Below, piece after piece: positions 20,278 through 43,533 of a DNA stretch of 64,000 nucleotides. Source of the stretch: an uncultured Prevotellaceae bacterium (GTDB taxonomy: Bacteria > Bacteroidota > Bacteroidia > Bacteroidales > Bacteroidaceae); contig ONFA01000001.1 in NCBI GenBank assembly GCA_900316975.1, positions 62,001 to 126,000 on the forward strand. Reading direction: 5' to 3'. Each line of letters starts with the position of its first letter. Positions within the stretch are counted from its first letter, which is position 1. The notes beneath the pieces were generated by a model. It saw nothing but the letters and a program-made list of their open reading frames with translations. It did not search any database and was not told the origin of the DNA. The position numbers were made by a program, and so were the translations under genes.

Positions 20278-21225
20278 TCACAGGGTCACATCCCAGAAGA
20301 GCGAACTCAGCCCGTCCTTCAAATCGTCACCTCCTGCCACGATGTTACCTTTGGTGTCTTTCACCGTCAGGTGGATGCGCCACAAGCCTGTCATGGTCAG
20401 GTTGATGCTGCCCTGATAGCTGCCGTCCTTTTGCTTGGTGAGTGGAGAGTTGTCGGGCGAGGTGTGGTTTCCCATATCAGGCATGCGAGGGTCAATCTCG
20501 ATGGTGAAAGTCTCCGTTGCCAAACCGTAGGGCGTGGTGGCTGGATTGTTCTTCTTGGAGATGTAGGCTTGGATGGTGTTGTTGCCTGTCTTCCAATCGG
20601 TTGGGTTGACCAGCGAGAGGTAGTAGGTGTCATCACCCACCTTGAACGACTTGAGCCATTCCTGCCCATCGGGGAGAGCATCCACGTTGATGGCTTTGTT
20701 TGCCACACTGCCTTTGCTGCCCAGCACCTCAATGTCGTAGGAGAACTGCCATGAACCAGCATCGCTTGTGTTCATCAGCAGCGAAACCCATCCGCGCTTC
20801 ACAGCGGGTCGAGTCGTGTCGAACACCTCGAAGTTGCCACCCACAGGGGTGCTGTGCCACATGTCCATCTTCACCATGTGCATGAGGGGTGTGATGCTGG
20901 TGATGTCGAAGAACTTCACGTAGTTGCCCGTCTTCTTCTTGGTCACCACGAAGTAGAGGTCGTTGTACCCCTTGTGCAGGGTGCCCGTCTTTGAATAAGC
21001 CCACACTTCATACTTGTCATCCACCGTGGTGGAGAGTTCGGGGATGATTTTGACCGTCTGGATGAACTTGTACACCTGCAGCGCCTCCTCAGCCGAGCAG
21101 CAATCCACATCCTGCGAAAGGTCAATACCGTCAATCACAATTCCCGTCTCGTCATCGTTGCTGTTGCACGATGTGAGTCCCAGCGATGCTACCGCTAAAA
21201 ACAACATTAATACCTTTGTCTTCAT
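20278..21225 (-). CDS. lipoprotein with YtkA/FixH-like C-terminal domain
   Basis: 315 residues. Lipoprotein signal MKTKVLMLFLAVASLGLTSC, with Cys at 20 as lipid site, followed by an acidic linker (NSNDDETG). The body has no motif I can name; the C-terminal part (FTIEIDPRMPDMGNHTS, then SINLTMTGLWRIHLTV) resembles the YtkA/FixH beta-sandwich, whose Met/His-rich strand is often linked to copper handling. VDCCSAEEA near residue 41 adds a vicinal cysteine pair. It precedes a TonB receptor on the same strand and has one of three near-identical upstream promoter modules. A periplasmic or outer-membrane metal-related role is inference. Confidence 0.7.
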   Translation of the reverse strand: MKTKVLMLFLAVASLGLTSCNSNDDETGIVIDGIDLSQDVDCCSAEEALQVYKFIQTVKIIPELSTTVDDKYEVWAYSKTGTLHKGYNDLYFVVTKKKTGNYVKFFDITSITPLMHMVKMDMWHSTPVGGNFEVFDTTRPAVKRGWVSLLMNTSDAGSWQFSYDIEVLGSKGSVANKAINVDALPDGQEWLKSFKVGDDTYYLSLVNPTDWKTGNNTIQAYISKKNNPATTPYGLATETFTIEIDPRMPDMGNHTSPDNSPLTKQKDGSYQGSINLTMTGLWRIHLTVKDTKGNIVAGGDDLKDGLSSLFWDVTL

Positions 21226-21272
21226 ACTCTTTAATTTGTTTAGAAGTTTTTTGTTAGTTCTTATTTTTGGTG

Positions 21273-21352
21273 CAAAGGTACGGACATTTCCCCATGCCCC
21301 AAATACCCCTCATGCGCTATAAGCATACCACGAACGGGGTAGAATCGGGTGG
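21273..21352 (-). promoter_or_regulatory. promoter module, copy A
   Basis: Minus strand: TTTG at 21303-21300, 19 bases, TACCTTTG at 21280-21273. It aligns without gaps over about 80 bp with copies at 29508 and 33857. Confidence 0.75.
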
Positions 21353-21381
21353 GGCAACGCCGCTCCCCCTTGTTGGGCACT

Positions 21382-21476
21382 TCCACAGCCTCAAAATCGA
21401 CCTCGTCGATGTCGGCAAGTCGACCTCGACGACATCGGTTAACCGACGTCGACGAGGTCGATTTTGAGGTTGTGGA
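21382..21476. other. nested GC-rich palindrome
   Basis: A 34-bp arm (21382-21415) and its inverse (21443-21476) differ at two positions. Inside, the region centred on GGTTAACC (21437-21444) forms a second palindrome built of GTCGAC/CGACCTCGACG units, so alternative foldings compete. No T run follows on either strand. It lies between the cysteine desulfidase stop and the lipoprotein promoter. Confidence 0.75.
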
Positions 21477-21550
21477 GGCATCGGGAAGGAGACTGTTTCA
21501 CTCCCTCATTCATCACACACCCATCTTCGGCTTCACACTGGTAGGTTTGG

Positions 21551-22837
21551 TCATTTGAGGCGCTTTGTTTTCTCCCTCATGATGTCCACGATTACACCCT
21601 CTGTCTTCACCATGCCGGGAGAGGCTATCAGCCCCATGTTTCGCATGGTGTCTTCGGGCATATGGCCATTGATGCCGTGCTCATGACCGATGGCGATGCC
21701 TTCTTGAGCAAAAGCCACGGAACGATAGGCTGCATCCACAGCCACAATGCCCTTCATCGTGCACCCGTGATTGCCTCCGTCGCAAATCATGCCTGTGATG
21801 CTCGATGCCATATTCTGAATGGTCAAGGTGAGTGTCTTGTGTGTGCCTCCTCTCAGAAAAGCCAATCCGCATGCCATGCCTGTGCCAGCAGCGATGGCAC
21901 ATCCGCAGAAAGCGGAGAGTTTTCCCGAGTACTCCTTAATGTACATGCAAACCAGATAACTTAGGGCTGTGGCGCGGAGCAACTGCTCCTCCGTGTAACC
22001 GTTCACTTGTTGTGCGGCATAGAGGGGAAGGGTGGCGATGATGCCATGTGCTCCACTTCCTGTGATGCTCATGGCTGGGCGCGAAAGTCCCAATACGCGT
22101 GCCTCGATGGCGGCATTGCAGAGTAGGGAAGCCGACGCCTGCTCATCATCCGAAATAACTCTTTCCCCGTTCTTTTTATATAAATAATGTGCAAACGTTG
22201 TTCTTCGGTTTTGGAGTGCTTGTTCGAAAAGGGCAAGGTTGAGGTCGTAAGCCTGACGGATGAACAGGAGTTCTTCGCTGGGAACACTCTGTGCGTAATG
22301 GAGCATTTGACGGAGGGTGAATCGGTGGATGAAGGGTGTCTGCCTTTCCTCATCTTTGGTGTCAGCATCGTCTCTCTCGAAGATGGTTTGGCCATCTTTC
22401 GTGATTCTTGTGACGTGGGTGTGTGCATCGCGGATGGTCACGTTGACCGCTCCCTCATTCGTCGTTATCTCTGCAAAGATGTAGATGCGGCTGCTGATTT
22501 CACCCAATTCCACCTTCACCAATCCCGCATTCACCAGCGCGTGAGCCTCTTGGTTATGGTGTGGTTTCACGCCTTCCAGACACTCCAGCCCTTTGCTTGC
22601 ATCGGCTGCCACATAGCCGAGGGCGGCGGCATGTTCATTTCCCACCTCATGGCTGTTGGGGATGCCGCAGGTGAAAGCGTTCTTGTACATGCCACTATTC
22701 AGCACCATGCGAATGCCCTTCAATGCTCCTGTTATGTGTCCCTTCGCTGTGGCAACTGCAAAAGCAATGGCTCCTGGCTCCGTGACTCCGAGGGCGGGGC
22801 GCATGTCGTCATGGATCAGTTGGGTAAGTCTTTTCAT
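21551..22837 (-). CDS. L-cysteine desulfidase-like protein (CyuA/UPF0597 family)
   Basis: 428 residues from the ATG at 22837 (MKRLTQLIHDDMRPALGVTEPGAIAFAVA), the usual family start. These enzymes break L-cysteine to pyruvate, ammonia and sulfide using a [4Fe-4S] cluster bound by conserved cysteines. Cysteines are seen in FCGCAIAAGTGMACG and in GMICDGGNHGCTMKG. The ATG overlaps the TGA of the NhaC-family gene (ATGA), so the two are translated as a pair. The old name serine dehydratase alpha-like also occurs for this family, so the substrate is not proven. Confidence 0.85.
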   Translation of the reverse strand: MKRLTQLIHDDMRPALGVTEPGAIAFAVATAKGHITGALKGIRMVLNSGMYKNAFTCGIPNSHEVGNEHAAALGYVAADASKGLECLEGVKPHHNQEAHALVNAGLVKVELGEISSRIYIFAEITTNEGAVNVTIRDAHTHVTRITKDGQTIFERDDADTKDEERQTPFIHRFTLRQMLHYAQSVPSEELLFIRQAYDLNLALFEQALQNRRTTFAHYLYKKNGERVISDDEQASASLLCNAAIEARVLGLSRPAMSITGSGAHGIIATLPLYAAQQVNGYTEEQLLRATALSYLVCMYIKEYSGKLSAFCGCAIAAGTGMACGLAFLRGGTHKTLTLTIQNMASSITGMICDGGNHGCTMKGIVAVDAAYRSVAFAQEGIAIGHEHGINGHMPEDTMRNMGLIASPGMVKTEGVIVDIMREKTKRLK

Positions 22838-24192
22838 TTCTGTTTGTGGTTGATGAAACAAGTGATAAGGCTGCATACAAGCAATGCCCAAGGATAAAAA
22901 GCGGTGAAGAACACGTCGGTGGCTTGCATTGTGATGTGTACCCCCGATGCTTCAATGCCCTTCAGCAACAGCAGTACACACCCACCGTAGGGCAGGACGA
23001 ATGGAAATGTGCAGATGACCGTGGCAAGCAGCGTTGTGCGGCGATAGGGATGCAGTTCGTGTTGCTTGCCGATGCTGTTGACAAACGGTGCGACACAGAT
23101 GTTGGCAATTGTGTTTACTGCTGCCATCAGAATGCCTGCCACCGACACCAGTGAAAAGATGGTGAGTTCAGCACTTCTTGGTGAACGGATGACGTGGTTG
23201 TTCAAACTGTTGATGATGCCATCCATCCCTCCACTGCGTATGATAAGCCCCGAAAGCGACACCACCACCATCAGGAGAATGCAGATGTTTGCCATGCCTC
23301 CGATGCCCTCTACGATGGCACCCTCCACCTTCCCGCCGGTCATGTTGATAAGGCTGCTCAGCGTGAAGAGGTCAAATGCCAACCCGATACCCACTGCTAT
23401 AGCCAATCCTAAAGCAAGTGAAACGAAAATGTTGACCTTTCGGAAGGATAGCAGAATGACCACCAGGGTGGGAATGAGTAAAGCCAAACTTTGTGGATGC
23501 GTAGAGGAACTATTGGACAAACCTTGTGATGGGGTAGTATCATTCCCGTTTGCCATGCCGTACGCAATCAATGCCACAGCCAGAGCTGTCAGCACCAAGG
23601 GCAGGCGCTTCTTGACTGTTCCCCCGATGTCAGCGCTTCCTTTCCCGTCAGTATATTCCTGTGTGGTGGCTGCAATCACTGCCGTGTCCGACACGGGCGC
23701 GATGCTGTCTCCCAATGCGGCTCCCGACAGGATGGCTCCCCCCAGCAAGGCAGGGTCTGCTCCCAAGGCGATGCCGGCAGGAAAGAGCGTCAGGCTCATG
23801 GCACTGATGGTGCCAAATCCAGAACCAGTAGAGATGGCGAACAAGCCTGAGAAGAGAAACACGACCAAGGTGAACCATGTGGCATTGATGTCGAACTGAT
23901 GTGCAGCCCACACCAATCCATCCACAATATGCCCTTCTTTCAGAATGCTGCCATACACCCCCACGATGAGCCACAGCAGGGTGGCGGTCATGGCGGTCTT
24001 GCTGCCCATGAACTCAAAGACGGTTTCCCAATAGGTGCCCTTTTCTTTCGTGAGAAAAGTCCCCACCAATATGGCTGAAATGCCCACACCCACCAAGAGA
24101 TTGATGTCAATTGCTCCCCCAAAAGAGAGCCCGATGGCCGTTCCTACAAAAAGGGTGAACGGCACGAATGAAACAGCTGCTTTCCAATCCAT
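22834..24192 (-). CDS. NhaC-family transporter coupled to the cysteine desulfidase
   Basis: 452 residues from the ATG at 24192 (a TTG lies just before it). About eleven membrane spans; family blocks LSGAALGDSIAPVSDTAVIAA and a C-terminal NTIANICVAPFVNSIG. NhaC proteins are annotated as Na+/H+ antiporters, but members beside amino-acid enzymes often carry amino acids. With a cysteine desulfidase translated from the overlapping codon, import of cysteine (or a precursor) driven by sodium is a reasonable guess, not shown. Confidence 0.85.
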   Translation of the reverse strand: MDWKAAVSFVPFTLFVGTAIGLSFGGAIDINLLVGVGISAILVGTFLTKEKGTYWETVFEFMGSKTAMTATLLWLIVGVYGSILKEGHIVDGLVWAAHQFDINATWFTLVVFLFSGLFAISTGSGFGTISAMSLTLFPAGIALGADPALLGGAILSGAALGDSIAPVSDTAVIAATTQEYTDGKGSADIGGTVKKRLPLVLTALAVALIAYGMANGNDTTPSQGLSNSSSTHPQSLALLIPTLVVILLSFRKVNIFVSLALGLAIAVGIGLAFDLFTLSSLINMTGGKVEGAIVEGIGGMANICILLMVVVSLSGLIIRSGGMDGIINSLNNHVIRSPRSAELTIFSLVSVAGILMAAVNTIANICVAPFVNSIGKQHELHPYRRTTLLATVICTFPFVLPYGGCVLLLLKGIEASGVHITMQATDVFFTAFYPWALLVCSLITCFINHKQK

Positions 24193-24227
24193 CAAGTTTA
24201 AGCTTTTGCCCTTTCTTAAATCAGGTG

Positions 24228-24258
24228 CAAAGGTACGGTCTTTTCAGCAGCTGTAAAA
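24228..24258 (-). promoter_or_regulatory. promoter of the NhaC-cysteine desulfidase pair
   Basis: TACCTTTG at 24235-24228 on the minus strand, followed by GCACC as in the other promoters here; the -33 is a weak TTTT. Confidence 0.55.
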
Positions 24259-24294
24259 TACCCTTTTCATGGTAGAGGGCTGTCGCTCTCCTTC

Positions 24295-24600
24295 TCAGTT
24301 CTTTTTGGGCTTCTCCCCCTCTTTCAGCTTCCGAGCCTCATAGCCTGCTTTAGAGAAAGCTTTCAACAGTTGGTTGACGGTGACTTTGTCGGCATCATAC
24401 TCGATGGTGACGGTTTGCTGTTCGATGTTGGTCACGATTTTCTTCACGCCCTTTTCAAAACGCAGGTTGCCCTTGATTTTCTTCTCGCAATTTTCGCAAT
24501 GCATCTGTGGGGTGGTGGTGAAGACTGCCTTCTGGATGTCTTTGGCAAGGCATACGGTGGAAACAGCCAATGCAATGAGGAATGCTTTTGTACGTGTCAT
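24295..24600 (-). CDS. periplasmic heavy-metal-associated (HMA) domain protein
   Basis: 101 residues: signal peptide (MTRTKAFLIALAVSTVCLA), then one ferredoxin-like HMA fold with the metal site MHCENCEKKI (CxxC at about 34-37) and the end KAFSKAGYEARKL. It binds a soft metal such as Cu(I), Hg or Zn. It lies 46 bases after the TonB receptor stop, likely in one transcript with it. Confidence 0.88.
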   Translation of the reverse strand: MTRTKAFLIALAVSTVCLAKDIQKAVFTTTPQMHCENCEKKIKGNLRFEKGVKKIVTNIEQQTVTIEYDADKVTVNQLLKAFSKAGYEARKLKEGEKPKKN

Positions 24601-24646
24601 AGTCTTTGTTTTTTATGTGTTGTTAATGAATATGTGTCTTGTGTGA

Positions 24647-26620
24647 TTACAGACGGTTGATATTCCAGCGGATGCCGATATATCCCATGGCGCCATGTAC
24701 GGGGGCCCACACCAATGTGGGGTCGAAAGTGCTGCTCCAAGGTGTTTCAGCATCTATGATGGTCTGACGCTGACGGAAGCCTGTCAGGTTCTCGCCTCCG
24801 ATGTAGATGGAGAAATGTCGGAACCAACGGGTGACCTGCGCATTCAACTGCTGGTAGGCGTGGAAAGACGTGTGGCTGTCGGTTGTCAGCCTGCCGTCAT
24901 CCATGGTCTCGAAATGGTGGGGCATTCTCCCGCCTCCGTTCAATTGCAGGGTTACATCAAACTGCCACAGTTCCAAAGGAGTCTTGTAGCTCAGTGTGAC
25001 AAGCCCCTTATACCGACTGGTCAACGGTTTCTGCATCAGCCGTCCGTCATAGGTGGTCTTCACGTCGTTCAGACGATAGGCAGCCATGAGTTCCAGTCCC
25101 TCCATGAGGGGGTAGGAGGCATCCAGCTGAAACGTGTTGGAATAGGAACGCCCTTGCAGGTTGGTGATACGAAGCAAAGTGGGGTCGCTGTCATAGTCGA
25201 TGATGGCTTGTTGGTGAAAATGGGTGTGGTAGTATTCAGCATTGAGTTTCAAGGTCTTGCCCCATAGAGGAATGTAGAAGGCGGAACTGATGCCGTAGTT
25301 CCATGCCTGTTCCTGCTGCAAATCGTCAATGAGGAGGGTGCGTCCGCTGGCGAGGAGGTAGGTGTTTTCTGCCAAAGCATGTACTGTACGGTAGCCTTTG
25401 CCGGCAGACAGACGAAGTGTGAGGAAGTCAGCAGGAGTGTACTTGAGATGAAATCGTGGGGTGACGAATGTGCCATGCCTGTTGCTGTGGTCGGTGCGGA
25501 GACCTGCCATGGCGACGAGTTTGTTGTGAAAGTTGAAAGTGTACTGGGCGTAGATGCCAGGGGTGCTTTCTTGGTCGTCTTTGGTCAGGTAGTCGTAATT
25601 GAAGGAAAAACCAGCAGAGAGATTGTGCTCTTCGGTAAAGTTGGTCTCGAACATCAGTTGTGCGTATGCCGTCTTTTCGTCCACTTGATAGGTCTTGTTG
25701 CCATAGTGTGCATCAACCTTGTGCAGCGAGGCATTGCCCATCAGAGCGATGTTGGTGCCATGTTCTGCATTGAGAATGAAGGCATGCTTCATGTAGCCCT
25801 CATATCGGTCGGTTTCCACACCAATGGTGTAGCGGTGGTGGTTGCTGGGAGCGGTGTGGTGGGTCTGTCCTCCATCCCGTTTCTCCTTCAGCAAAGAAAG
25901 TCCTCCATGAAAGAGATACCGTTCTCCCTTCCATTTCCAGCGGTTTTGCAGGTTCCATTGCCGTACGTTCGGCTGGTCAAGAAAACTGTCATCGTTCTCG
26001 TCGTGGTGTCCCCAATCGTCTTGGTAGTGCAGTAGCAGTTCTGTGCTCAGATGACTGTCCAAATGGACGTTCCCCTCCGCATTTGCCTCAAAACGGCTCA
26101 AGGTATTGCCATATAGGTTGACGCTCATACCCTGCTCCGCATCAGGTTTCAGATACTCTACGTCTATCTGTCCTGTAATGCTCTCATGACCGTTCTTGAC
26201 AGATGATGCACCTTTGGAAACCTGAATGCTGTTCATCCATGTCCCAGGCACATAGTCGAGCGCATAAGGGGATGCTGCCCCCCGAAAGTTGGGCAGGTTC
26301 TCTGTGAGCATCTGCACATAAGTGCCGCTCAATCCTAATAGTTTGATTTGCTTGGCTCCAGTCGTGGCATCCGAATAATTCACATCGACCGATGGATTGG
26401 TGGTGAAACTCTCGCCCAAATTGCAGCATGCAGCCTTGAAGAGTTCTGTCTGCCCGATTTTTATGCCATTTTCAGCACCGCTCATGCGCAAGGTGCCACC
26501 TTGACGAGCTGTCACGGTCACATCATCCAGACTCTGCGACTGCAACGTGTCTATTTGCGCCGAGACGAGTAGTCCCTGCATCCAGATGGCTCCAGCCAGA
26601 AGATGTCTTGTGTTCATCAT
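24647..26620 (-). CDS. TonB-dependent receptor paired with an HMA protein
   Basis: 657 residues. Signal peptide, TonB box-like LDDVTVTARQGG (about 30-42), plug with FKAACCNLGESFTTNPSVDV (a vicinal Cys pair), KQIKLLGLSGTYVQML and GHESITGQIDVEYLKP, then a barrel with many His residues (GHHDENDD, GGQTHHTAPSNHH). The His/Cys content and the next gene, a CxxC metal protein, suggest uptake of a metal or metal complex, possibly copper; this is inference. The promoter box TACCTTTG is at 26645-26638. Confidence 0.87.
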   Translation of the reverse strand: MMNTRHLLAGAIWMQGLLVSAQIDTLQSQSLDDVTVTARQGGTLRMSGAENGIKIGQTELFKAACCNLGESFTTNPSVDVNYSDATTGAKQIKLLGLSGTYVQMLTENLPNFRGAASPYALDYVPGTWMNSIQVSKGASSVKNGHESITGQIDVEYLKPDAEQGMSVNLYGNTLSRFEANAEGNVHLDSHLSTELLLHYQDDWGHHDENDDSFLDQPNVRQWNLQNRWKWKGERYLFHGGLSLLKEKRDGGQTHHTAPSNHHRYTIGVETDRYEGYMKHAFILNAEHGTNIALMGNASLHKVDAHYGNKTYQVDEKTAYAQLMFETNFTEEHNLSAGFSFNYDYLTKDDQESTPGIYAQYTFNFHNKLVAMAGLRTDHSNRHGTFVTPRFHLKYTPADFLTLRLSAGKGYRTVHALAENTYLLASGRTLLIDDLQQEQAWNYGISSAFYIPLWGKTLKLNAEYYHTHFHQQAIIDYDSDPTLLRITNLQGRSYSNTFQLDASYPLMEGLELMAAYRLNDVKTTYDGRLMQKPLTSRYKGLVTLSYKTPLELWQFDVTLQLNGGGRMPHHFETMDDGRLTTDSHTSFHAYQQLNAQVTRWFRHFSIYIGGENLTGFRQRQTIIDAETPWSSTFDPTLVWAPVHGAMGYIGIRWNINRL

Positions 26621-26637
26621 TGTCGTGTTTTATGGTA

Positions 26638-26645
26638 CAAAGGTA
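26638..26645 (-). promoter_or_regulatory. -7 box of the TonB receptor/HMA transcript
   Basis: TACCTTTG on the minus strand, 18 bases before the ATG; no good TTTG is seen at -33. Confidence 0.5.
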
Positions 26646-26708
26646 CGACTTTTCTTGTAACAGTTGAGGTAAATGTCTGTTAAAGAATGCTATTTGTGCT
26701 TTGAAAAC

Positions 26709-26745
26709 AAAAAAACAGGGGCGCTTCGTCACGAAGAACCCCTGC
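26709..26745 (-). terminator. rho-independent terminator of the SusCD transcript
   Basis: On the minus strand CAGGGG..CCCCTG closes over a TTCGT/ACGAA inner stem and is followed by seven T. It lies about 150 bases after the FISUMP lipoprotein stop. Confidence 0.8.
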
Positions 26746-26893
26746 TCAAATTGATGAATCTAATATCGTTCGTTATTTTTTAATTATGTCATTAGAAGAT
26801 TCATTAATCTATTCTAACTAATTCATTTGACTTATTCACCTATTTCTTTCCTGAGAAAGTGAGGATGAGTTTCTTTGTCATTAGAAATAAGAA

Positions 26894-27610
26894 TTATTCC
26901 CAAACAGGACGTATTGTGCGTCCCCATTGCCTGTCATTTAAACTCCACTGTGGGGCAAAACCGCTTCCAATGGATACATATTCTATGTCATCGTAAGTGG
27001 TCCAGCCAAATAGAGTTGAAGAGAGGAGGATGATTTTTGTGCCAACACTATAGGTCTCTGTACCGTTTTGATAGCCAGCGGCAGGGATGAAAATGCTATT
27101 TCCGTTTGGTCCCACTATTTCGTGTCCGTTCACACCGTTCACCTTCTTCCATGTCCATGTGGTTTTCTCAATCAGTTCTATGATCTCATTTTGTGTGGGA
27201 GTGCGCCACTTGCCGCCCCAGTTCACACGTGCAGCATCGTCGGAGAGTTCAAGAGTGCGGAGGCCGTTGCCGACAGAACTGTCTATCGAAGACAATTGAT
27301 ATTTTGTCAGAGCATCGGCTTGTCCCCATTTATATGTTGCCCATGTATAGTTTGCCTTTGGCTCTGTCTCGCCGAAGACGAAGTACTTGCCGAAGTCTTC
27401 TTCTGAAGATGCTCCTAAGTTCTGGTTGGCCCATTTGACTGATAAACCGAGATCGACAATATCGCCTACGGTTCCGCCTATAGCAACTGCTTTGCCAGCA
27501 TTTGTGTTTACATCTTCCTGTTTGGAATCGTCGTCATCTTTGCTGCAAGAGATGGATGCCACACTAAGAATTGCTGCTGTGGCGAGGATAAAGATTTTGT
27601 TGTGTGTCAT
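26894..27610 (-). CDS. FISUMP-domain lipoprotein
   Basis: 238 residues. Lipoprotein signal with ISCSKDDDDS (Cys lipid site, acidic surface-export-like stretch). The body VDLGLSVKWANQNLGAS, YFVFGETEPKANYTWATYKW, GGKWRTPTQNEIIEL and a terminal WGRTIRPVW is the FISUMP/DUF1566-like module common in Prevotella. Its function is unknown; as the last gene after SusD it may be an accessory surface ligand-binding lipoprotein. Confidence 0.8.
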   Translation of the reverse strand: MTHNKIFILATAAILSVASISCSKDDDDSKQEDVNTNAGKAVAIGGTVGDIVDLGLSVKWANQNLGASSEEDFGKYFVFGETEPKANYTWATYKWGQADALTKYQLSSIDSSVGNGLRTLELSDDAARVNWGGKWRTPTQNEIIELIEKTTWTWKKVNGVNGHEIVGPNGNSIFIPAAGYQNGTETYSVGTKIILLSSTLFGWTTYDDIEYVSIGSGFAPQWSLNDRQWGRTIRPVWE

Positions 27611-27714
27611 GTTTTATTTTGTTTTTGTGTTTGGAATACATGAGGGGCTGGTGTACATTGTTGTATGCCAGCCCCTTGTTGATGAATACTCTTTAGTATG
27701 GCTAAGATTCAGAC

Positions 27715-29364
27715 TTAGTATCCGGGATTCTGGCTGATGCCGAGGTCTTCACCCTTCAGACCCGTTGGAATGGGCTGGCGGTAGTGCTTGCCGCGCACAT
27801 TATTGTACTTAGCCACGAGGTGGTTGTGAATCTTCGTGAAGTAAGCCTCCTGATCAGCCGTGTAGGTCTTGCCAGTGCTGGTCTTCCAGTCGTTGGGGAA
27901 GTGCTTGTAGGTGGACACTTTCTTCACTGACGAGATGAGGTCTTTCCAGCGGTATGAGTTCAGCACGGAGAATTGCTCATAGGTGAATTCATAGTCCCAT
28001 TCACGCTTGATTTGGTCGAAGGTCGGTGCGCTGACCGTAGCGATGCCTGCACGGGTGCGGAGTTGGTTGAAAGGCTCAGCAGCCTCGCTGTTTTTGCCCA
28101 GTTGCACAAGGGCTTCAGCCTTGATGAGAAGCACTTCTGCGTAGCGGATTTCGATGCGGTCAACCGAATTTTGTGTGATTTCGAGGTTTTCAGCATTTTC
28201 GTAACTCTGATCTACGCCCTTGCCGTTGATAGGAGTGTAAATGGGTGAGTAGTAGTGGTGGGTCTTGCCTGTTTCCGGGTTCTTAATCTCCACGAAGTAA
28301 GTTTCTGCCAGACGCTTGTCGTTGGGCTGTTCGGCCTTCCAATCATCGTAAAGGTCATCGTCCGAAACCTCGGTGTGGTTTTGGCTGTAGCCCTCACCAT
28401 TCTCACCGTTCTGGAAGGGGAATGTCCATGAGCAGTGTGTCTGGTGGTTGCCCTGAGCGTCATTCTTGTCACCATCGTGGGCAATGGTGAAGAGGTGCTC
28501 GTTGGTCTTACGCTTGTTGCTCTCATACTCACGTCCCCACAACTTGTTATATTCGGGGTCGAGGGCGAGTTTTTTGCTGTTGATGACCTTGTCGGCATAC
28601 TCCACGGCCTTCTGAAGTTTGGCATCGTCCTTGCTGAAAGCAGGGTCTGTCTGGGTGTTGGCGATGGCAGCCACCTCAGCCTGAGAGAGTGGCTTGTCAC
28701 CCCACACGAGGTAGGTACGTGCCAACAGTCCCTGTGCTGCCTGTTTGGAAGGAATGCGTGGGTCACCATCGTAGTCCTTCAAAAGTGATTCTGCAGCCGT
28801 GAAGTCGCTGACAATCTGTTCAAAAACTTTGTCAATGCTCTGACGTTCGGTGGTGCTGCCGCCTTCTTCTGTATAGACAGGCACTTCGCCCCAGAGTTGC
28901 ACAAGTTTCAGATATGCCAAACCACGAAGGAACTTTGCCTTGCCCACTGCGGCATTGTAGCCCGCCTGACTCACTTTGCCCGCCTTGAGCGAGTTACTGA
29001 TGGTGGTGATGGCTTCGTTTGCCTGTGTGATGCCGAGGAACAAGTGGTTGAAAATCTTCACCTGATACCATGTGGTAGGTTCTTGCTCGAAGCGGCTGTT
29101 CACCGGTCCTGCTTCATTTTCCTCACCCTCGAAGGAGGTGAGTTTGTTGCTGTTCAACTCGATGATGAACGAGAATGAAGAACTGAGTGGCTGCCAATGG
29201 CTGTACACACCATTCACCAATGAGAGGGCACTGGCATCGTCTGCCACTACATTTTCGTCAGTCACCTGATTACTGCTGCTGTTGTCGTCATCAGATGAGC
29301 ACGAAGAAAAGCCTGCTAAGAGGCTCGTTGCTGCCAAAGCAGCGAGGAAGATGTTCTTTTTCAT
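27715..29364 (-). CDS. SusD/RagB-family outer membrane lipoprotein
   Basis: 549 residues from the ATG at 29364 (the open frame upstream crosses the promoter and is dropped). Lipoprotein signal MKKNIFLAALAATSLLAGF ending SSCSSDDDN. TPR-type helices and SusD blocks: AKFLRGLAYLKLVQLWGEVP, VDRIEIRYAEVLLIKAEALV, PFNQLRTRAGI, YEFTYEQFSVLNSYRWKDL. It forms the lid of the SusC barrel at the cell surface. A full promoter module lies right before it, so it can be expressed apart from susC, which is unusual. Ligand unknown. Confidence 0.93.
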   Translation of the reverse strand: MKKNIFLAALAATSLLAGFSSCSSDDDNSSSNQVTDENVVADDASALSLVNGVYSHWQPLSSSFSFIIELNSNKLTSFEGEENEAGPVNSRFEQEPTTWYQVKIFNHLFLGITQANEAITTISNSLKAGKVSQAGYNAAVGKAKFLRGLAYLKLVQLWGEVPVYTEEGGSTTERQSIDKVFEQIVSDFTAAESLLKDYDGDPRIPSKQAAQGLLARTYLVWGDKPLSQAEVAAIANTQTDPAFSKDDAKLQKAVEYADKVINSKKLALDPEYNKLWGREYESNKRKTNEHLFTIAHDGDKNDAQGNHQTHCSWTFPFQNGENGEGYSQNHTEVSDDDLYDDWKAEQPNDKRLAETYFVEIKNPETGKTHHYYSPIYTPINGKGVDQSYENAENLEITQNSVDRIEIRYAEVLLIKAEALVQLGKNSEAAEPFNQLRTRAGIATVSAPTFDQIKREWDYEFTYEQFSVLNSYRWKDLISSVKKVSTYKHFPNDWKTSTGKTYTADQEAYFTKIHNHLVAKYNNVRGKHYRQPIPTGLKGEDLGISQNPGY

Positions 29365-29507
29365 GTTTGTGATCTCCTTTCTTTTTTTTACCTTAATATA
29401 ATTATTATGTTTGTAGTTATTTCTAAATGACTTCGTCTTGTTCCTCCTTACAAGGCATCGTTCAAATAAGATTGACAATGCTCTTGCTTCGTTCGTCATT
29501 TCTGGTG

Positions 29508-29590
29508 CAAAGGTACGGACATTTCACTATGCCCGAAATACCTTTCATGCGCTATTATAGTACCATAAAGAGGGTAGAGGTGATAGTTTG
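29508..29590 (-). promoter_or_regulatory. promoter module, copy B, before susD
   Basis: TACCTTTG at 29515-29508 with TTTC 19 bases upstream and the same 80-bp surroundings as copies A and C. Confidence 0.7.
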
Positions 29591-29760
29591 AAATGAAAAA
29601 TCTAAACTATAAGTTACTTTTGCTAATGACACACTATCCGAATGGCAGGTAACTTAAATTTTTCACTTTTGGCTTCGCCGAAGATGCTCACGTTCGGCAT
29701 AGTTCAAACCAGTTTGACCTTTGCACTCACTCAATCGCATCTTTCACTTTTTACTTTTCA
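29591..29760. repeat. AT-arm element with CCGAATGGC core between susC and susD
   Basis: TGAAAAATCTAAACTATAAG and GGTAACTTAAATTTTTCAC are rough inverses around CCGAATGGC (29638-29646); a second TTTTTCACTTTT-like arm ends the stretch. Confidence 0.55.
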
Positions 29761-29764
29761 CTCT

Positions 29765-32700
29765 TCACAATGAAATGTTCACGCCAAACGTGAATGTCCT
29801 TGCTGATGGGTAGGCTCCACTGTCTGTGCCACCGCTGACTTCGGGGTCATAGCCCTTGTAGGGGGTGAGGGTGAAGAGGTTGGTGGCAGTGGCATAGATG
29901 CGGAGGGAGAGAGGAAATGACTTGGGCAGTCGGGGACGATAGCCGATGGTCAGATTCCTGAGTTTCAAGTAGGAGGCACTCTGCACATAGCGGCTGTCGA
30001 TGTAGGAGAAGGGTCGTGAGGTGGAGGCGAGGGGAAGGGTGTTGCCGCCTCGCTCTGCTGTCCATGCATCCTTCACAGTGGAGAGCACGTTGTAGGAGTC
30101 ACCTGTCTGCTCCAACCGCCTGCCCAGAGCATTGTAGAGTTTGCCACCATGACTGCCAGCAAAGGTGACGGAGAAATCCCACTCGCGCACTTGCAGTTGG
30201 GAGGAGAAACCGTAGGTGAGGTCGGGCTGTATGGAGCCGAGAATCACACGGTCGTTACCGTCAATCTTCCCGTCGTTGTTGGCATCGGCAAACTTGGCAT
30301 CACCGGCTTTTGGGGTGAGTCCGTTCACTGTCGGCAGTTGGCTCACATCCTCCCCATTTTGTACGATACCCACGAACTGCAAACCGTAGAAGGAACCGAG
30401 TGCTTCACCTTTGCGGAGAATCTGTTGGTTGTCTGCCCCTTGGATGACGTTGTTGGTCTTGCCCATGTTGGTGATTTCGTTCTTGTTGTGGGCGAGGTTG
30501 GCAGAGGCTGTCCATTGCAGGTGACGACGTTTGAGCAGGGTGCCGTTCACAGCCAGTTCGATACCTTTGTTTTCTACATTACCCACATTCTGAAGTTGGC
30601 TGGTCACACCATTGGCAAAGCCCATCGGTACATCGAGCAGGAGATCCGAGGTCTTCTTGTAATAGAGATCGAGCACCACATTGAATCGTCCGCCCCAAAG
30701 TCCGAGGTCTGCACCGAGGTTGTAGGATGCGGTGGTTTCCCACTTCAGGTTGTCGTTGGCGGTATTTGCTTTGGCATAGGAGGATGAACCGCCATAGGAA
30801 CCTGTATTGTAGGAGGTGGAGAAGGCATAGTCGGGTATTTCCTGATTGCCTACGAGTCCTCCTGTGAGGCGAAGTTTCAAATAGTCGATGTGCCGTGCAT
30901 GGGCGAGGAAGTTTTCTTTGTCTGCATTCCATGAGAGTCCGAGTGACGGGAAGTAGCCCCAGCGGTGATTCTTGGAGAATCGGCTGGAGCGGTCGGCACG
31001 GAAGGTGGCGGTGGCGTTGTAGCGGTCGAGCAGTGTGTAGTTGACTCGGGCGATGAGGCTGTTGAGGGTGCTTTCGCTGATGCCTGTCTGTGGGGTGTAG
31101 ATGTTGGCTCCGTCGCCGAGGTTGTACTGTTTCAGGGTCTCGTTGGTGAAGTGGTTGGTGCGGATGGCACTGTGGGTCGAGGTGCTCGTCTGCTTGGTGT
31201 AGCCTGCCAAGGCGTCAATCTGATGGATGCCGAGTTCTTTGTTGTATGATGCTGTGTATTCCTGTTGCCATACGTCTGTCTGCCTGTTTCCCGTTCCACC
31301 GATGCCTTGGGTGGCCAAGCCCAACGAGGTGTAGGCTCCCGAGAAGTAGTTCTGGGTGAGTTTCTCGCTGCTCAGTCCCACGGTGGCTTTCAGGGTGAAG
31401 TCGCCCAGTTTGTAACTTGCCCACACGTTGCTGAGCAGGTAGTTGTTCACGTTCTCAGCCACACTCTCTTTCAGGTCATAGACGGGATTTGCCGCATGGT
31501 CGCCAATGGCGAAGTAGGCGTACTCGTATGGATTGGTGAAGTTGTAGGAGCCATCGGCGTTATGGACGCTGATGACGGGCGGCATGAGCAGTGCATAGAC
31601 GAAACTGTTGGTGATGCCGGCAGAGTAGGGCGATGAGTTGAACACCTTTTCCTCGGTGGTGGTCAAACCCTGCTGCTTGCTGCGTCCGTAGGTGGCATTG
31701 ATGCCGAACTTCAGATTCTTCTGCAATTCCCACTCCGCATTGGTGTGGAAGTTGTAGCGTTGGAACCCCGAATTGAGCACGATGCCGTCTTGGTCGGTGT
31801 AGTTGGCGGAGAAGGCGTAGCGGCTCTTGTCGGTGCTGCCATTGATGGAGAGTTCGTGTGCCTGCTGCACGGCTGTCCTGAGCACGGCATCCTGCCAGTC
31901 TGTTCCTTTGCCGAGTGCCTTGATTTGTTCGTCGGTATAGCCTCCCTTGTTGCTGAAATAGGTCTTCTGAAACTGTGCCCATTCGGAGGCGTTGAGCAGG
32001 TCGAGGTGCTTGCTCACACTGCTCAGCCCGAGGCTGTAGCCATAGGAGATGTGGGCTTTCTTCTCACCAAGTTTCCCTTTCTTGGTGGTGATGAGGATGA
32101 CTCCGTTGGCTCCACGCGAACCGTAGATGGCGGTGGCACTCACGTCCTTCAGCACCTCGATGCTCTCGATGTCGTTGGGGTTGATGGTGGCAAGCGGGTT
32201 GAGGCTGCTCTCGATGGCTCCCAAACCTGTTCCGTTGGAAGATGCATCTTTGTAATAGATGAAACCATCCACAACATATAGGGGTTCGTTGCTGGCATTG
32301 ACCGAGTTGCCGCCACGGATGCGGATGCTGCTCTCCGCTCCAGGCTGTCCGCTGGCTGCGGTCACGTTCAGTCCTGCCACCTGTCCGCTCAAGGCTCCGT
32401 CGAGGGTGCTGGCTGTGCTGTTCTCAAACACGTCTGCCTTGACTGTCACGACCGAACCTGTCAACTGCGTGCGGCTCTGGGTGCCATAACCCACCACGAC
32501 CACGTCATTGAGGTAACTGCGCTTCTCAGCGAGTTTCACGTTGATGTCTTCTTCATCGTCATATACGGTGACGGTTTGTGGACGGTAACCTGTGAAACTG
32601 ATGTTCAACTTGACAGGTAGCGACTTCACATCCAGAGCGAAGTGTCCGTCAATATCAGTGGTCACACCCTTGCCGTCACCATATTTCACGGTGGCTCCGA

Positions 32701-32815
32701 TGATACTTTCTCCTGTTGCGGCATCCGTAATGGTGCCCTGCACTGTTTGCGCCCATGTCGCAAAAGTGGAAGCGACGGTCAGTGCCGCCGCTAAAAACAA
32801 TCTTTCCTTAATCAT
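29765..32815 (-). CDS. SusC/RagA-family TonB-linked outer membrane transporter
   Basis: 1016 residues. Signal peptide, carboxypeptidase-regulatory-like domain at about 24-95 (GTITDAATGESIIGATVKYG), the SusC/RagA signatures DVVVVGYGTQSR and NPNDIESIEVLKDVSATAIYGSRGANGVI in the plug, then a 22-strand-type barrel ending FTFGVNISL. With SusD it makes a TonB-driven importer. The upstream gene is a PstS-like binding protein, so phosphate or a phosphorylated nutrient is a possible cargo; that is inference, and glycans or peptides are not excluded. Confidence 0.95.
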   Translation of the reverse strand: MIKERLFLAAALTVASTFATWAQTVQGTITDAATGESIIGATVKYGDGKGVTTDIDGHFALDVKSLPVKLNISFTGYRPQTVTVYDDEEDINVKLAEKRSYLNDVVVVGYGTQSRTQLTGSVVTVKADVFENSTASTLDGALSGQVAGLNVTAASGQPGAESSIRIRGGNSVNASNEPLYVVDGFIYYKDASSNGTGLGAIESSLNPLATINPNDIESIEVLKDVSATAIYGSRGANGVILITTKKGKLGEKKAHISYGYSLGLSSVSKHLDLLNASEWAQFQKTYFSNKGGYTDEQIKALGKGTDWQDAVLRTAVQQAHELSINGSTDKSRYAFSANYTDQDGIVLNSGFQRYNFHTNAEWELQKNLKFGINATYGRSKQQGLTTTEEKVFNSSPYSAGITNSFVYALLMPPVISVHNADGSYNFTNPYEYAYFAIGDHAANPVYDLKESVAENVNNYLLSNVWASYKLGDFTLKATVGLSSEKLTQNYFSGAYTSLGLATQGIGGTGNRQTDVWQQEYTASYNKELGIHQIDALAGYTKQTSTSTHSAIRTNHFTNETLKQYNLGDGANIYTPQTGISESTLNSLIARVNYTLLDRYNATATFRADRSSRFSKNHRWGYFPSLGLSWNADKENFLAHARHIDYLKLRLTGGLVGNQEIPDYAFSTSYNTGSYGGSSSYAKANTANDNLKWETTASYNLGADLGLWGGRFNVVLDLYYKKTSDLLLDVPMGFANGVTSQLQNVGNVENKGIELAVNGTLLKRRHLQWTASANLAHNKNEITNMGKTNNVIQGADNQQILRKGEALGSFYGLQFVGIVQNGEDVSQLPTVNGLTPKAGDAKFADANNDGKIDGNDRVILGSIQPDLTYGFSSQLQVREWDFSVTFAGSHGGKLYNALGRRLEQTGDSYNVLSTVKDAWTAERGGNTLPLASTSRPFSYIDSRYVQSASYLKLRNLTIGYRPRLPKSFPLSLRIYATATNLFTLTPYKGYDPEVSGGTDSGAYPSARTFTFGVNISL

Positions 32816-32823
32816 GCTGTATG

Positions 32824-32850
32824 AAGTTTTTTGTGCCAGCCAAGCGCTGG
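32824..32850 (-). promoter_or_regulatory. leader hairpin with AAAAAACTT before susC
   Basis: In gene direction CCAGCGCTTGGCTGG is followed by AAAAAACTT and, eight bases later, the ATG. The same order stands before cysK (38325-38350) and thiS (39357-39382). Confidence 0.6.
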
Positions 32851-32900
32851 TCGTTTTTTATTCTCAATGGTCAACGATCATCTTTTCATTGTCTCCTTCT

Positions 32901-33806
32901 TTAATTATTTTGTGCCAAGAGTCTCAACTGGCTCTCCACCTCTTTATTGGTCAGATGAAGGAAACCTGCAGCGTGGTTGTACTGTTGCCCGTCGCGGATA
33001 ATCCACTGGAGGAACTGGTCGATGTCGGTGTCGAAACTGTTATAGGTGAAACCAATGTTTTCTACTGGGATGAGGTCGATGTCTTCATTCTCGATTAGTT
33101 CAAGTGCCTCGTCAAGATTGCCAGAACGGAGTGCTTCACGTTGGCTTGCCTTCACATCAAGGGGCAGGAGGGCAAGGTCACTGCGCAGAGTGCGTGAAGA
33201 GAGGTCGTAGAGGTTGCTCAGTGCATTGAACGTGACCGAAGCCTTGTCTTCGCTGATGGCAGAGAGTAGGTAGAGATCGTCACCTGCAATGCGGTTGCCA
33301 CGCAAGTCATCAATGGTGCGTCCGAAGTGAGAGGCGAAGATGCCGGACAGAGATGTCTTACTGCTGCCAGAATATACCGTCAACTTGTCTTTCAGTTTGT
33401 TGTGCTTTCCCTCCACTTCTTCTTCGTACTCTTCATCAAGGTCTTCCGCTGTGAAAAAGAGGCTCTTGATGTCCTTGCTCTTCCACACCTTCTTCTGGAT
33501 GTCGCCTAAGAGAGGATTATCTGTGGAGGTGACAGGAAGTAGAGCATAACGACCCACATAGGTGACATTCACCCCCTCCTGATGACTGCTCACCAGCGTC
33601 AGGTCAGCGTCAGCGTTCTTGCCACTCACCAGGGCGATCTGCACGTCGGGGTTCACCGCCTTGTACCCCTCAATCCATTTCTCCACCAAGGCTTTGCTTG
33701 CCTTGTTCACTTTCACGGTGATCACACCGTCGTTCTGCGCTGTTGCTGCATTTGCCGTCAATGTCACGGCCACTGCTATTGCTGTAAAAAATGCTTTCAT
33801 CTTCAT
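32901..33806 (-). CDS. PstS-like periplasmic substrate-binding protein
   Basis: 301 residues. Signal peptide (MKMKAFFTAIAVAVTLTANA), then a type II periplasmic-binding fold: VNPDVQIALVSGKNADADLTLVSS, VGRYALLPVTSTDNPLL, TVYSGSSKTSLSGIFASHFG and a C-terminal YNSFDTDIDQFLQWI. The GSSKTSLS loop is where PstS proteins hold phosphate. No ABC permease is near; instead it precedes susC, so it may receive cargo from the SusCD pore in the periplasm. It has promoter copy C. Confidence 0.75.
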   Translation of the reverse strand: MKMKAFFTAIAVAVTLTANAATAQNDGVITVKVNKASKALVEKWIEGYKAVNPDVQIALVSGKNADADLTLVSSHQEGVNVTYVGRYALLPVTSTDNPLLGDIQKKVWKSKDIKSLFFTAEDLDEEYEEEVEGKHNKLKDKLTVYSGSSKTSLSGIFASHFGRTIDDLRGNRIAGDDLYLLSAISEDKASVTFNALSNLYDLSSRTLRSDLALLPLDVKASQREALRSGNLDEALELIENEDIDLIPVENIGFTYNSFDTDIDQFLQWIIRDGQQYNHAAGFLHLTNKEVESQLRLLAQNN

Positions 33807-33856
33807 GCTTTTATATTTAATATGTGTAACTTTCGAGTTGATTTCTAAATCTGGTG

Positions 33857-33936
33857 CAAAGGTACGGACATTTCACCGTGCCCGAAATCACTTTGATGGG
33901 GGATATTGCTACCATACTTGTGGTATATACATGAGA
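33857..33936 (-). promoter_or_regulatory. promoter module, copy C, before the PstS-like gene
   Basis: TACCTTTG at 33864-33857, TTTC 19 bases upstream; about 80 bp alignable to copies A and B including a distal TACCA. Confidence 0.7.
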
Positions 33937-34005: not shown

Positions 34006-35802
34006 CTATTTCACCACTTCCACATCACTATATGCCATTCGTTTCCCCTGTGCAAGTCGAACCCCCTCCACACGTATGACCTTCGCACGAGTGGGCTTGC
34101 ATCGCACCGTCTGCCAGATGGGGTTGTTGACGATGTTGGAGAACTCACCTTCTCCCAAAGTCTCCCAATGGTTCCAGTCGGTAGTGGCTGCGATGCGGTA
34201 ATGCGTGATGATGCCATCGCGCGAATCTTGTGGGGGAAGGTAACGGAAAGCAGTGACGGTTGTCTCCTGGTCGAGGTTGACAAACATCATGTTGTCTGTG
34301 GCAAAGAAGATGTAATAGTCCGATGCATGTTTCTCGCCAGCGTTCGGAGTGTCTTGACTGATGTCGGGAGCCAGATATAAACCGAGTTTCTGGATGACTG
34401 GTTCAGCCTTGCAGTCGGTGATGGTGAAACGCAGTTGAGTGGCCTTGACGGTGGGAAAGCAGATGATGCGACGGTGCCCGATGGTGGTGAGGCCGTCATG
34501 CCCCTCCACCAGTTCGTCTTTCAATGGTATCCATTGACCATCGACAAAGGCTTCAAGGGTGAATTTCTTCACACGCTGACCCAGGGAGATGTCTTCTTCG
34601 GCAAGGAAACGGTTGACAGTGGTTGGCTTTTTGAACGTGAGAGTGAACGACCTGTTGACGAGGTTTGGATGTTTCACTTCCTTGACGATGTTCTTTTGGA
34701 ACACCTCATCTATCATCTTCTTGAAGGCGATGCCTCGCAAACTGTCAGTGGGATGGATACGTCCGTTAGGGGCAATGGGGAAGTTGAGCAGCAGCGTGGA
34801 ATTGCGCCCAACAGATTTATAATATGTGTCCATTAACTTTGATAGGCTCTTCACGTTCTCGTTCTCCGTCTCGTGGTAGAACCATCCGGGGCGTATGCTG
34901 GTGTTTGTTTCTGCAGCTACCCATGAGTCACCGTTTTCCAATCCGAAGCGTAACATGTTACCGGACACATCCCCTTCCTTGTTCAGGAGGCTCCAGTTGG
35001 TTTCACCTACACTACCTGCCTCGTTGCCCACCCAGCGCAGGTCGCCACGGTCTCCACCATCATTCCATATCACGCACTTAGGTTGCAGTTCCCGAATCAT
35101 ACGGAAGGTCTCGCCCCATTCGTAGTAAGTCTTGGCATCGATGCGGCGTGTTTCATTTGCTCCACCATACCAGCCATCGCCACCATTAGCTCCATCGAAC
35201 CATACCTCGAAGATGTCGCCGTATTGAGTCAACAATTCACGCAACTGATTGCGAAAATAAGTGATGTATTCAGGTTTCCCATAATCTGGATGGTTTCTGT
35301 CCCACGGAGAAAGATAGACAGCGAATTTCAAACCCTCCTTGCGACAAGCATCAGCCAGCTCACGCACCACATCGCCTTTGCCATCCTTCCAGGGCGAGTT
35401 CTTTACCGAGTATTCCGTATAGGCAGAAGGCCACATGCAAAATCCGCAGTGATGCTTGGCAGTGAAGATGATACCCTTCATGCCTGCCTGTTTGCACACA
35501 CGTGCCCACTGCTGGCAATCCAAACTGGAAGGATTGAACAATTTCGGGTCTTCATTTCCGAAACCCCATTCTTGGTCTGTGTAAGTGTTCAGCGAGTAAT
35601 GGATGAACGCATACATCTCCATCTCTTGCCACCGCAGCTGGTTTTCAGTGGGCACTGGTCCACAGGGCTCCACTTGCGCTTTCAGCATGATGGAGACCAA
35701 CGTGACCAGCATGAATAAACCAGAACGCTTTGTTTGTGCCCATGTTGATAAGGTGGTACATGCTACTAATGGGGGAATCAAGATTGTTTTTAGTTTTCTC
35801 AT
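34006..35802 (-). CDS. GH29 alpha-L-fucosidase with C-terminal F5/8 type C-like domain
   Basis: 598 residues from the ATG at 35802; earlier in-frame ATGs lie upstream of the -7 box at 35829-35822. GH29 enzymes are retaining exo-fucosidases; WFDGANGG (about 192-199) holds the family nucleophile Asp. KHHCGFCMWPSAYTEYSV is another family block. The last 130 residues (DQETTVTAFRYLPPQ, WNHWETLGEGEFSNI, RVEGVRLAQGKRMAYSDVEV) fit a galactose-binding-like F5/8 C domain. Two hydrophobic export-type segments occur in a row (TILIPPLVACTTLSTWAQ and GLFMLVTLVSIMLKAQ), which is odd. Periplasmic or surface action expected. Confidence 0.92.
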   Translation of the reverse strand: MRKLKTILIPPLVACTTLSTWAQTKRSGLFMLVTLVSIMLKAQVEPCGPVPTENQLRWQEMEMYAFIHYSLNTYTDQEWGFGNEDPKLFNPSSLDCQQWARVCKQAGMKGIIFTAKHHCGFCMWPSAYTEYSVKNSPWKDGKGDVVRELADACRKEGLKFAVYLSPWDRNHPDYGKPEYITYFRNQLRELLTQYGDIFEVWFDGANGGDGWYGGANETRRIDAKTYYEWGETFRMIRELQPKCVIWNDGGDRGDLRWVGNEAGSVGETNWSLLNKEGDVSGNMLRFGLENGDSWVAAETNTSIRPGWFYHETENENVKSLSKLMDTYYKSVGRNSTLLLNFPIAPNGRIHPTDSLRGIAFKKMIDEVFQKNIVKEVKHPNLVNRSFTLTFKKPTTVNRFLAEEDISLGQRVKKFTLEAFVDGQWIPLKDELVEGHDGLTTIGHRRIICFPTVKATQLRFTITDCKAEPVIQKLGLYLAPDISQDTPNAGEKHASDYYIFFATDNMMFVNLDQETTVTAFRYLPPQDSRDGIITHYRIAATTDWNHWETLGEGEFSNIVNNPIWQTVRCKPTRAKVIRVEGVRLAQGKRMAYSDVEVVK

Positions 35803-35821
35803 GTTTTGGTATTTTTGTTTG

Positions 35822-35829
35822 CAAAGGTA
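35822..35829 (-). promoter_or_regulatory. -7 box of the GH29 gene
   Basis: TACCTTTG on the minus strand followed by GCAAAC; start of transcription would be about 13 bases before the ATG at 35802. No clear -33. Confidence 0.55.
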
Positions 35830-35910
35830 CGAAACTATGAGTTTGTGATGTGTCATAATATTATCCAAGAATAGGACAATCTTGTGACAGATGTGCTAAA
35901 ATACCTACTC

Positions 35911-36312: not shown

Positions 36313-36975
36313 ATGGACAAAAAACACATCATCATTGCTGACAATCAAGACATCACACGGTTGGGGTTGAAAACCCTGGTGCGTGTAGCGTTGAAAGACG
36401 TGGAGGGACTGGAGGTGAAGGAACTGGGGCACAGGGCGGAACTGATTGCCGAACTGAAGGAAAACCCCGATTCGGTGGTCATTATCGACTACACACTTTT
36501 CGATCTCGGCAGTCCCGATGAGTTGCTCAATCTAAGTGAACGGTTTCCCTTTGTGTTGTGGGTGCTCTTCTCTGCTGATTTAACCGAGCAACTGATGCGT
36601 CGACTCAGTGTAGAACTCCAATTTAGCATGATTCTGAAGGACGATTCAGCGCAGGAAATCATTACAGCGCTGAAGTGTGCTGTTACGGGAGTCCGTTTCC
36701 TCTGTCATCAAGTGACCAATTTGTTGCTTACCCCCTCACCCCAACAGTCGGCATTGGAGCGTGACCAACTGACTGCCACCGAGAAGGAGGTGTTGAGGCT
36801 CATTGCCTTGGGTAAATCGGTGAAGGAGATTGCAGCCGAACGCAATTCGAGCATCCATACTATCACGACCCACAAGAAGAACATCTTCCGCAAAATCAAC
36901 GTGAACACCATCTATGAAGCTACGAAGTACGCTCTGAGGGCTGGACTGGTGGAGATGGTGGAGTACTATATATAA
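36313..36975 (+). CDS. NarL/LuxR-type response regulator
   Basis: 220 residues from the ATG at 36313. Receiver domain (about 1-120): IIIADNQDITRLGLK at the acidic pocket, VVIIDYTLFD with the phospho-acceptor Asp, SMILKDDSAQEI with the conserved Lys. LuxR-type helix-turn-helix at about 155-215: LTATEKEVLRLIALGKSVKEI, TTHKKNIFRKI. No sensor kinase is adjacent, so its input is unknown. It directly precedes the sulfur operon on the same strand and may control it. Confidence 0.87.
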   Translation: MDKKHIIIADNQDITRLGLKTLVRVALKDVEGLEVKELGHRAELIAELKENPDSVVIIDYTLFDLGSPDELLNLSERFPFVLWVLFSADLTEQLMRRLSVELQFSMILKDDSAQEIITALKCAVTGVRFLCHQVTNLLLTPSPQQSALERDQLTATEKEVLRLIALGKSVKEIAAERNSSIHTITTHKKNIFRKINVNTIYEATKYALRAGLVEMVEYYI

Positions 36976-38228: not shown

Positions 38229-38322
38229 AAGTGGTAGCAGAATGCCACAGAGAGGGGATTGTGCGGCAGATGGAAAACAACGAACTTTGCATCGGAAAAT
38301 AGGTGTTGATAATTGTAAAATC

Positions 38323-39295: not shown

Positions 39296-39355
39296 TGATT
39301 GGAAAAACAAGCCGCATGGCTTCATTGTTAATTATTCAATGTTCATTAAAAATCG
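39296..39355. repeat. core unit with AATTGTTAATTATT arm
   Basis: AAGCCGCATGGCTT (core CCGCATGGC at 39312-39320) followed by CATTGTTAATTATTC; only one arm is clear. Between cysK and the carrier gene. Confidence 0.55.
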
Positions 39356-39356
39356 C

Positions 39357-39382
39357 CCAGCGCATGGGCTGGCAAAAAACTT
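39357..39382 (+). promoter_or_regulatory. leader hairpin with AAAAAACTT before the sulfur-carrier gene
   Basis: CCAGCGCATGGGCTGG, then AAAAAACTT, seven bases before the ATG at 39390. Confidence 0.6.
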
Positions 39383-39389
39383 CATAATT

Positions 39390-43436: not shown

Positions 43437-43439
43437 AGG

Positions 43440-43533
43440 CATGTACCATGTACCATTTACAATGTACAATTTAGGCTGACGCGATGTGCGCAAGCCGCAT
43501 GGTAAATTGTACATTGTACATGGTAAATTGTAA
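43440..43533. repeat. ACAATGTACAATTTA-arm element with core (copy 3)
   Basis: Clear form: arms ACCATTTACAATGTACAATT and its inverse flank GGCTGACGCGATGTGCGC and CCGCATGGT (43495-43503). It fills the whole encapsulin/desulfurase gap. Confidence 0.85.

Follow-up and report, generated by a model that had tools for sequence, protein, structure and literature searches.

Why do several genes along one stretch of an uncultured Prevotellaceae genome carry nearly the same promoter, and could a single factor read them all? The first-pass annotation of the window (the whole 64,000-nt stretch analyzed here) had described a module of about 80 bp, designated A, B, and C in its three copies, before three transport genes, suggesting either that one factor co-regulates them or that a promoter was duplicated. 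The ungapped alignment behind this description is real. In the 63 nt that precede TACCTTTGC, A and B share 50 identities, B and C share 45, and A and C share 41, compared with a mean of 19.6 (sd 6.3) over all promoter pairs in the window and 31 for the top unrelated pair. The likeness begins at a distal TACC and ends after TTTGCACCA, a span of ~72 bp that reaches well past the basal -33/-7 boxes, as had been proposed. In all three modules TACCTTTGC is the -7 box, with TTTG (A) or TTTC (B and C, again as first read) 19 nt upstream, which fits the Bacteroidetes housekeeping promoter, defined here as a -7 TAnnTTTG and a -33 TTTG ~19 nt apart. Three exact copies of a 22-mer, GGTGCAAAGGTACGGACATTTC, are present in the window (starting at 21269, 29504, and 33853, each in a minus-strand promoter), and there are none elsewhere in the 3.08-Mb genome.

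Within the modules lies a palindrome, TACC-N8-GGTA, found five times in the window (at 21326, 24259, 29561, 33910, and 38221) compared with 0.20 expected from shuffles. In A, B, and C, its end is 45 nt from the -7 box. A second, weaker palindrome is located 22 bp downstream of the distal one and directly abuts the -33 TTTG/TTTC; it reads TAGC-N8-GGTA in A and B and is more degenerate in C. The shared distal element of the first-pass annotation thus holds as a TACC present in all three copies, although the TACCA given there is read from the other strand. Likewise, the three copies stand, but there are two more, and the genes behind them are not solely for transport: Module D has the proximal site alone, 23 nt from its -7 box, and module E repeats the layout of A–C on the plus strand, upstream of cysK-thiS. 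Genome-wide, modules were sought by pattern searches. The elements are as follows.

21272 to 21341, minus strand: module A, promoter of the YtkA-like lipoprotein operon
21326 to 21341, minus strand: distal operator of module A, TACCCCGTTCGTGGTA
21304 to 21319, minus strand: proximal, half-conserved operator of module A, TAGCGCATGAGGGGTA
21300 to 21303 and 21272 to 21280, minus strand: -33 TTTG and -7 box TACCTTTGC of module A
24227 to 24274, minus strand: module D, with a lone operator in the proximal position (24259 to 24274, TACCATGAAAAGGGTA) and -7 box TACCTTTGC at 24227 to 24235
29507 to 29576, minus strand: module B, promoter between susC and susD, with its distal operator at 29561 to 29576
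29539 to 29554, minus strand: proximal operator of module B, TAGCGCATGAAAGGTA, with -33 TTTC and the -7 box at 29507 to 29515
33856 to 33925, minus strand: module C, promoter of the PstS-like gene and susC, with its distal operator at 33910 to 33925, TACCACAAGTATGGTA
33888 to 33903, minus strand: degenerate proximal operator of module C, with -33 TTTC and the -7 box at 33856 to 33864
38221 to 38290, plus strand: module E, promoter of cysK-thiS, with its distal operator at 38221 to 38236, TACCATAAAAGTGGTA
38243 to 38258, plus strand: proximal operator of module E, TGCCACAGAGAGGGGA, with the -7 box GAACTTTGC at 38282 to 38290

We also noted a long inverted repeat (CTCAAAATCGACCTCGTCGA and onward, with its complement) upstream of module A, at 21385–21480.

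The genes behind the modules, and those that accompany them, are listed by position.

16452 to 17654, minus strand: SDF-family (PF00375) sodium/proton symporter for amino or dicarboxylic acids
17953 to 20094, minus strand: TonB-dependent receptor-like protein of 713 aa, which follows the YtkA gene in relatives too
20278 to 21225, minus strand: YtkA-domain lipoprotein (PF13115), which appears to head an operon that continues with the TonB receptor and the SDF symporter
21551 to 22891, minus strand: SDH_alpha/cysteine-desulfidase-like enzyme, behind module D
22834 to 24195, minus strand: NhaC-type antiporter, behind module D (the pair spans 21551 to 24195)
27715 to 29364, minus strand: SusD-family lipoprotein, behind module B
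29765 to 32815, minus strand: SusC/RagA-family TonB-linked receptor
32901 to 33806, minus strand: periplasmic binding-protein-like (PstS-like) protein, a weak profile match to phosphate-binding proteins (E 1e-5)
36313 to 36975, plus strand: NarL/FixJ-type response regulator with a receiver fold and a GerE helix-turn-helix, the proposed operator binder
37053 to 38228, plus strand: Cys/Met-metabolism PLP enzyme (PF01053), adjoining the regulator gene in most loci of the genus
38360 to 39295, plus strand: cysK, above the NCBIfam TIGR01139 cut-off
39390 to 39611, plus strand: thiS, behind module E together with cysK (38360 to 39611)

We assign this set a likely sulfur role on account of CysK, ThiS, and the Cys/Met PLP enzyme encoded at 37.1 kb. 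TcyP belongs to the SDF symporter superfamily; cystine as the substrate of the symporter is our guess. The susD start was placed at 29364 by its lipoprotein signal, giving a leader of ~135 nt. An AlphaFold model of the PstS-like protein was discarded as evidence of identity (mean pLDDT of 45).

Other genes are interspersed with this set or lie close to it. An alpha-L-fucosidase gene (34006–35868) separates the PstS-like gene from the regulator gene here and in a few relatives; in most relatives this insert is missing, and the two genes are divergent neighbors with the operator of module C between them. The interval between modules D and B (24295–26620) encodes a small HMA heavy-metal protein and a 657-aa TonB receptor, both missing from this island position in some relatives. 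Near the sulfur regulon (41997–45150), an SrpI-like encapsulin shell of family 2A, which includes a cNMP-binding domain, is encoded ahead of a cysteine-desulfurase-type aminotransferase of class V.

The modules are conserved among relatives. Across the 45 genomes of the genus set, the combined operator and promoter pattern had ~130 matches compared with ~10 for a reversed control, mostly at 44–46 or 23 nt. The proximal site, which was not used in selecting the modules, is itself conserved (TACC-C-CA..AA.GGGA, with several columns at 1.5–2 bits). With the palindrome standing before the same genes and in the same register in about 30 related genomes, the earlier suggestion of co-regulation by one factor is well supported. 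Two outcomes would speak against it, namely, modules at unrelated genes and a similarity confined to the basal boxes, and neither was found. A module at 44–46 nt was present in 30 out of 32 genomes with the regulator gene and in none of the 13 without it (Fisher 1.4e-9, kinship ignored). Genomes without the regulator are also missing this cysK and susD, so the co-occurrence within the genus partly reflects gain and loss of the whole island.

The protein encoded at 36313–36975 is our candidate for the factor. Its C terminus is a LuxR/GerE helix-turn-helix (PF00196, E 5e-16), and its full-length profile and fold matches are VraR/LiaR, RcsB, and NarL. The structural model has the beta-alpha order of a receiver domain; the Pfam receiver model has no match to the sequence. 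The phospho-acceptor D59, together with S87 and K109, is invariant in 39 homologs. An acidic pair at the end of strand 1 is usual in the NarL/FixJ family, though not universal; here the usual pair is absent, D10 being invariant and the second position usually N (an ADNQ motif). Given its fold, helix-turn-helix, and phospho-acceptor, we read the protein as an atypical NarL/FixJ-type member. Only four GerE proteins above cut-off are encoded in the genome, one of them inside this island, in which we saw no histidine kinase.

Homologs of the regulator (about 41%–59% identical) occur across Bacteroidales, for example in Bacteroides, Parabacteroides, and Dysgonomonas, and we examined 93 loci from outside the genus that carry one. 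An operator with a promoter precedes 21 out of 26 cysK genes at these loci compared with 25 out of 1006 other ORFs (P = 1.3e-26), and at 16 of the cysK genes the operator is exactly 23 nt above the -7 box. Many of the 25 other ORFs are metY (at exactly 45 nt, mostly in Bacteroides-type loci) or the regulator gene itself, whose own promoter carries the operator in several other families. MetY and CysK are encoded beside the regulator most often (25 loci each), followed by a protein named from its sequence as an MnmA-like tRNA thiolase (14 loci). These results from other families owe nothing to the window's own island and support the factor, as well as its sulfur role, more strongly than any other evidence, and the palindromes before cysK, metY, and the regulator gene extend the case for co-regulation beyond the genus. 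Many non-genus loci, mostly Prevotella-like, have a regulator homolog with neither a nearby cysK nor an operator; these Prevotella-type homologs may be paralogs.

Taken together, these data make it quite likely that the modules carry tandem operators at which a NarL-type activator would control a sulfur/cysteine regulon in response to sulfur limitation. Could another factor, of the CymR/Rrf2, CsoR/CstR, BlaI, or LysR/CysB type, bind the operators instead, with the regulator a mere neighbor? CymR is the cysteine regulator of Firmicutes, and TACC...GGTA palindromes are typical of CsoR-type operators too. But among the 45 genus genomes no Rrf2-family protein scored above cut-off and no CsoR-family protein was found (0/45), whereas control genomes were positive for both, ruling out CymR/Rrf2 and CsoR as the factor. 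The presence of the regulator also tracks that of the modules, and its own promoter is among the operator's targets in other families, leaving a different binder unlikely.

Less probable still is that one promoter was recently copied, or spread by gene conversion, with no shared factor behind the likeness. Duplication does appear to have played a part at susD. The susD module of the window matches the ytkA promoter of genome G006 at 67 out of 72 positions and the ytkA module of G038 at 65 out of 72. The susD gene itself shares 98% DNA identity with its counterpart in G007, where the module matches at just 54 out of 72. From this mismatch between gene and module, a ytkA-type module was probably moved in front of susD. 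Promoter duplication, the second suggestion of the first-pass annotation, is therefore borne out for that copy but not as the sole cause. The nearest neighbor of a module belongs to the same gene in 57 out of 65 cases, and this clustering by gene and not by genome indicates that the modules are old. Moreover, what modules of different genes share is mainly the two palindromes and the boxes, set at fixed spacing, and other families have the operator by itself, without the remaining module, upstream of cysK and metY. These observations refute pure duplication as the only cause.

A further conserved TACC-N8-GGTA occurs on contig 62 of the same genome (L116:3625–3697), between metY and a second cysK; it sits in a terminator-like hairpin found also in regulator-less genomes, and we dropped it as a sixth member of the regulon. 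That site is what might recommend reading all of the palindromes as RNA hairpins (terminators of upstream genes) and not as DNA operators, a reading we consider very improbable, as modules A–E have no G+C-rich arms with a T-run and keep a fixed distance to the -7 box, in register across genes whose upstream neighbors differ.

Returning to a NarL-type activator, we compared its putative operators with those of Escherichia coli NarL. NarL dimers recognize 16-bp 7-2-7 palindromes built on TACYYMT (PMC7419079, PMC4886647). The operators of modules A–E and their relatives have the same length and the same 7-2-7 geometry on TACY; the TACC core matches, but the inner bases are mixed (TACCAYA, TACCCYN; A/C-A/C/T-A), and the agreement is not exact. 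A single NarL site just upstream of the -35 element suffices at yeaR-yoaG, ogt depends on two, one abutting -35 (centered at -44.5) and another upstream, and activation by NarL is also possible from -67.5 (PMC7419079). Likewise, in our modules a site abuts the upstream promoter element or stands in tandem with a second one further upstream. If transcription starts a few bases after TTTGC, the site centers would fall near -44 and -66, close to those NarL positions, and these estimates suggest an activator layout. The sites are 22 bp apart here compared with 33 bp at ogt (by the ogt site centers). Further differences from yeaR-yoaG and ogt are the Bacteroidales -33/-7 promoter, the sulfur rather than nitrate genes, and the lack of a linked sensor kinase.

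In the mechanism we propose, each full module would be an activator-dependent Bacteroidales -33/-7 promoter with tandem 16-bp TACC-N8-GGTA operators placed 22 bp, or two helical turns, apart, the proximal one abutting the -33 box. Dimers of the NarL-type regulator of the island (36313–36975) would bind these operators and bring in RNA polymerase, in the manner of NarL at yeaR-yoaG (one site) and ogt (two sites); we infer activation rather than repression, and sulfur limitation as the signal. The predicted targets (cysK-thiS, the NhaC antiporter with the desulfidase, the ytkA-TonB-SDF operon, the PstS-like gene with susC, and susD) would together form a regulon for sulfur and cysteine acquisition. 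In CymR (Rrf2) and CysB (LysR) regulons, too, one factor controls genes of cysteine synthesis and of sulfur uptake. Unlike those systems, the candidate here is a receiver–helix-turn-helix response regulator, in a genus where Rrf2 is absent.

A sister class of operator, TACCTA-N4-TAGGTA(TTG), was seen 22–24 nt from TAnnTTTG in other Bacteroidales genomes (L256, L278, L280, and L313–L326), where it precedes feoAB-like genes (several genomes), genes for hemerythrin-like proteins, and a hemerythrin-LuxR fusion. It probably serves CdhR-type iron regulators as their operator. CdhR, like its hemerythrin partner, is a DNA-binding regulator of Porphyromonas, Bacteroides, and Prevotella (PMC10434189). 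The sister operator occupies the same position as ours; CdhR-type proteins, in contrast, have links to iron and heme and either carry a hemerythrin or adjoin one, whereas the regulator described here has a receiver domain and sulfur targets.

We found no published account of a cysteine/LuxR regulon of Bacteroidales in the open-access literature searched. Most of the known regulators of sulfur amino acids come from Proteobacteria and Firmicutes, and the same literature yielded none for Bacteroidales. For the order as a whole, we lean, with more reserve than for the modules themselves, toward an undescribed and partly autoregulated NarL-type regulator, without a linked kinase, that governs cysK and metY, thiolation genes, and sulfur uptake across the outer membrane. 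Its ancestral targets would be cysK and metY, and the regulon of the rumen lineage would have grown as promoter modules moved onto new transport genes. Bacteroidales are a dominant order of gut and rumen, and the analysis names a candidate sulfur amino-acid regulator for them, with its site given to the base pair. Predicted targets lie in cultured Bacteroides, Parabacteroides, and Dysgonomonas, where they can be tested directly. On this reading, SusCD, PstS-like, YtkA, and TonB genes, which by sequence alone would be filed under sugar, phosphate, or copper, gain a likely role in sulfur metabolism or uptake, and the probable transfer at susD exhibits the reuse of a promoter module on a new gene.
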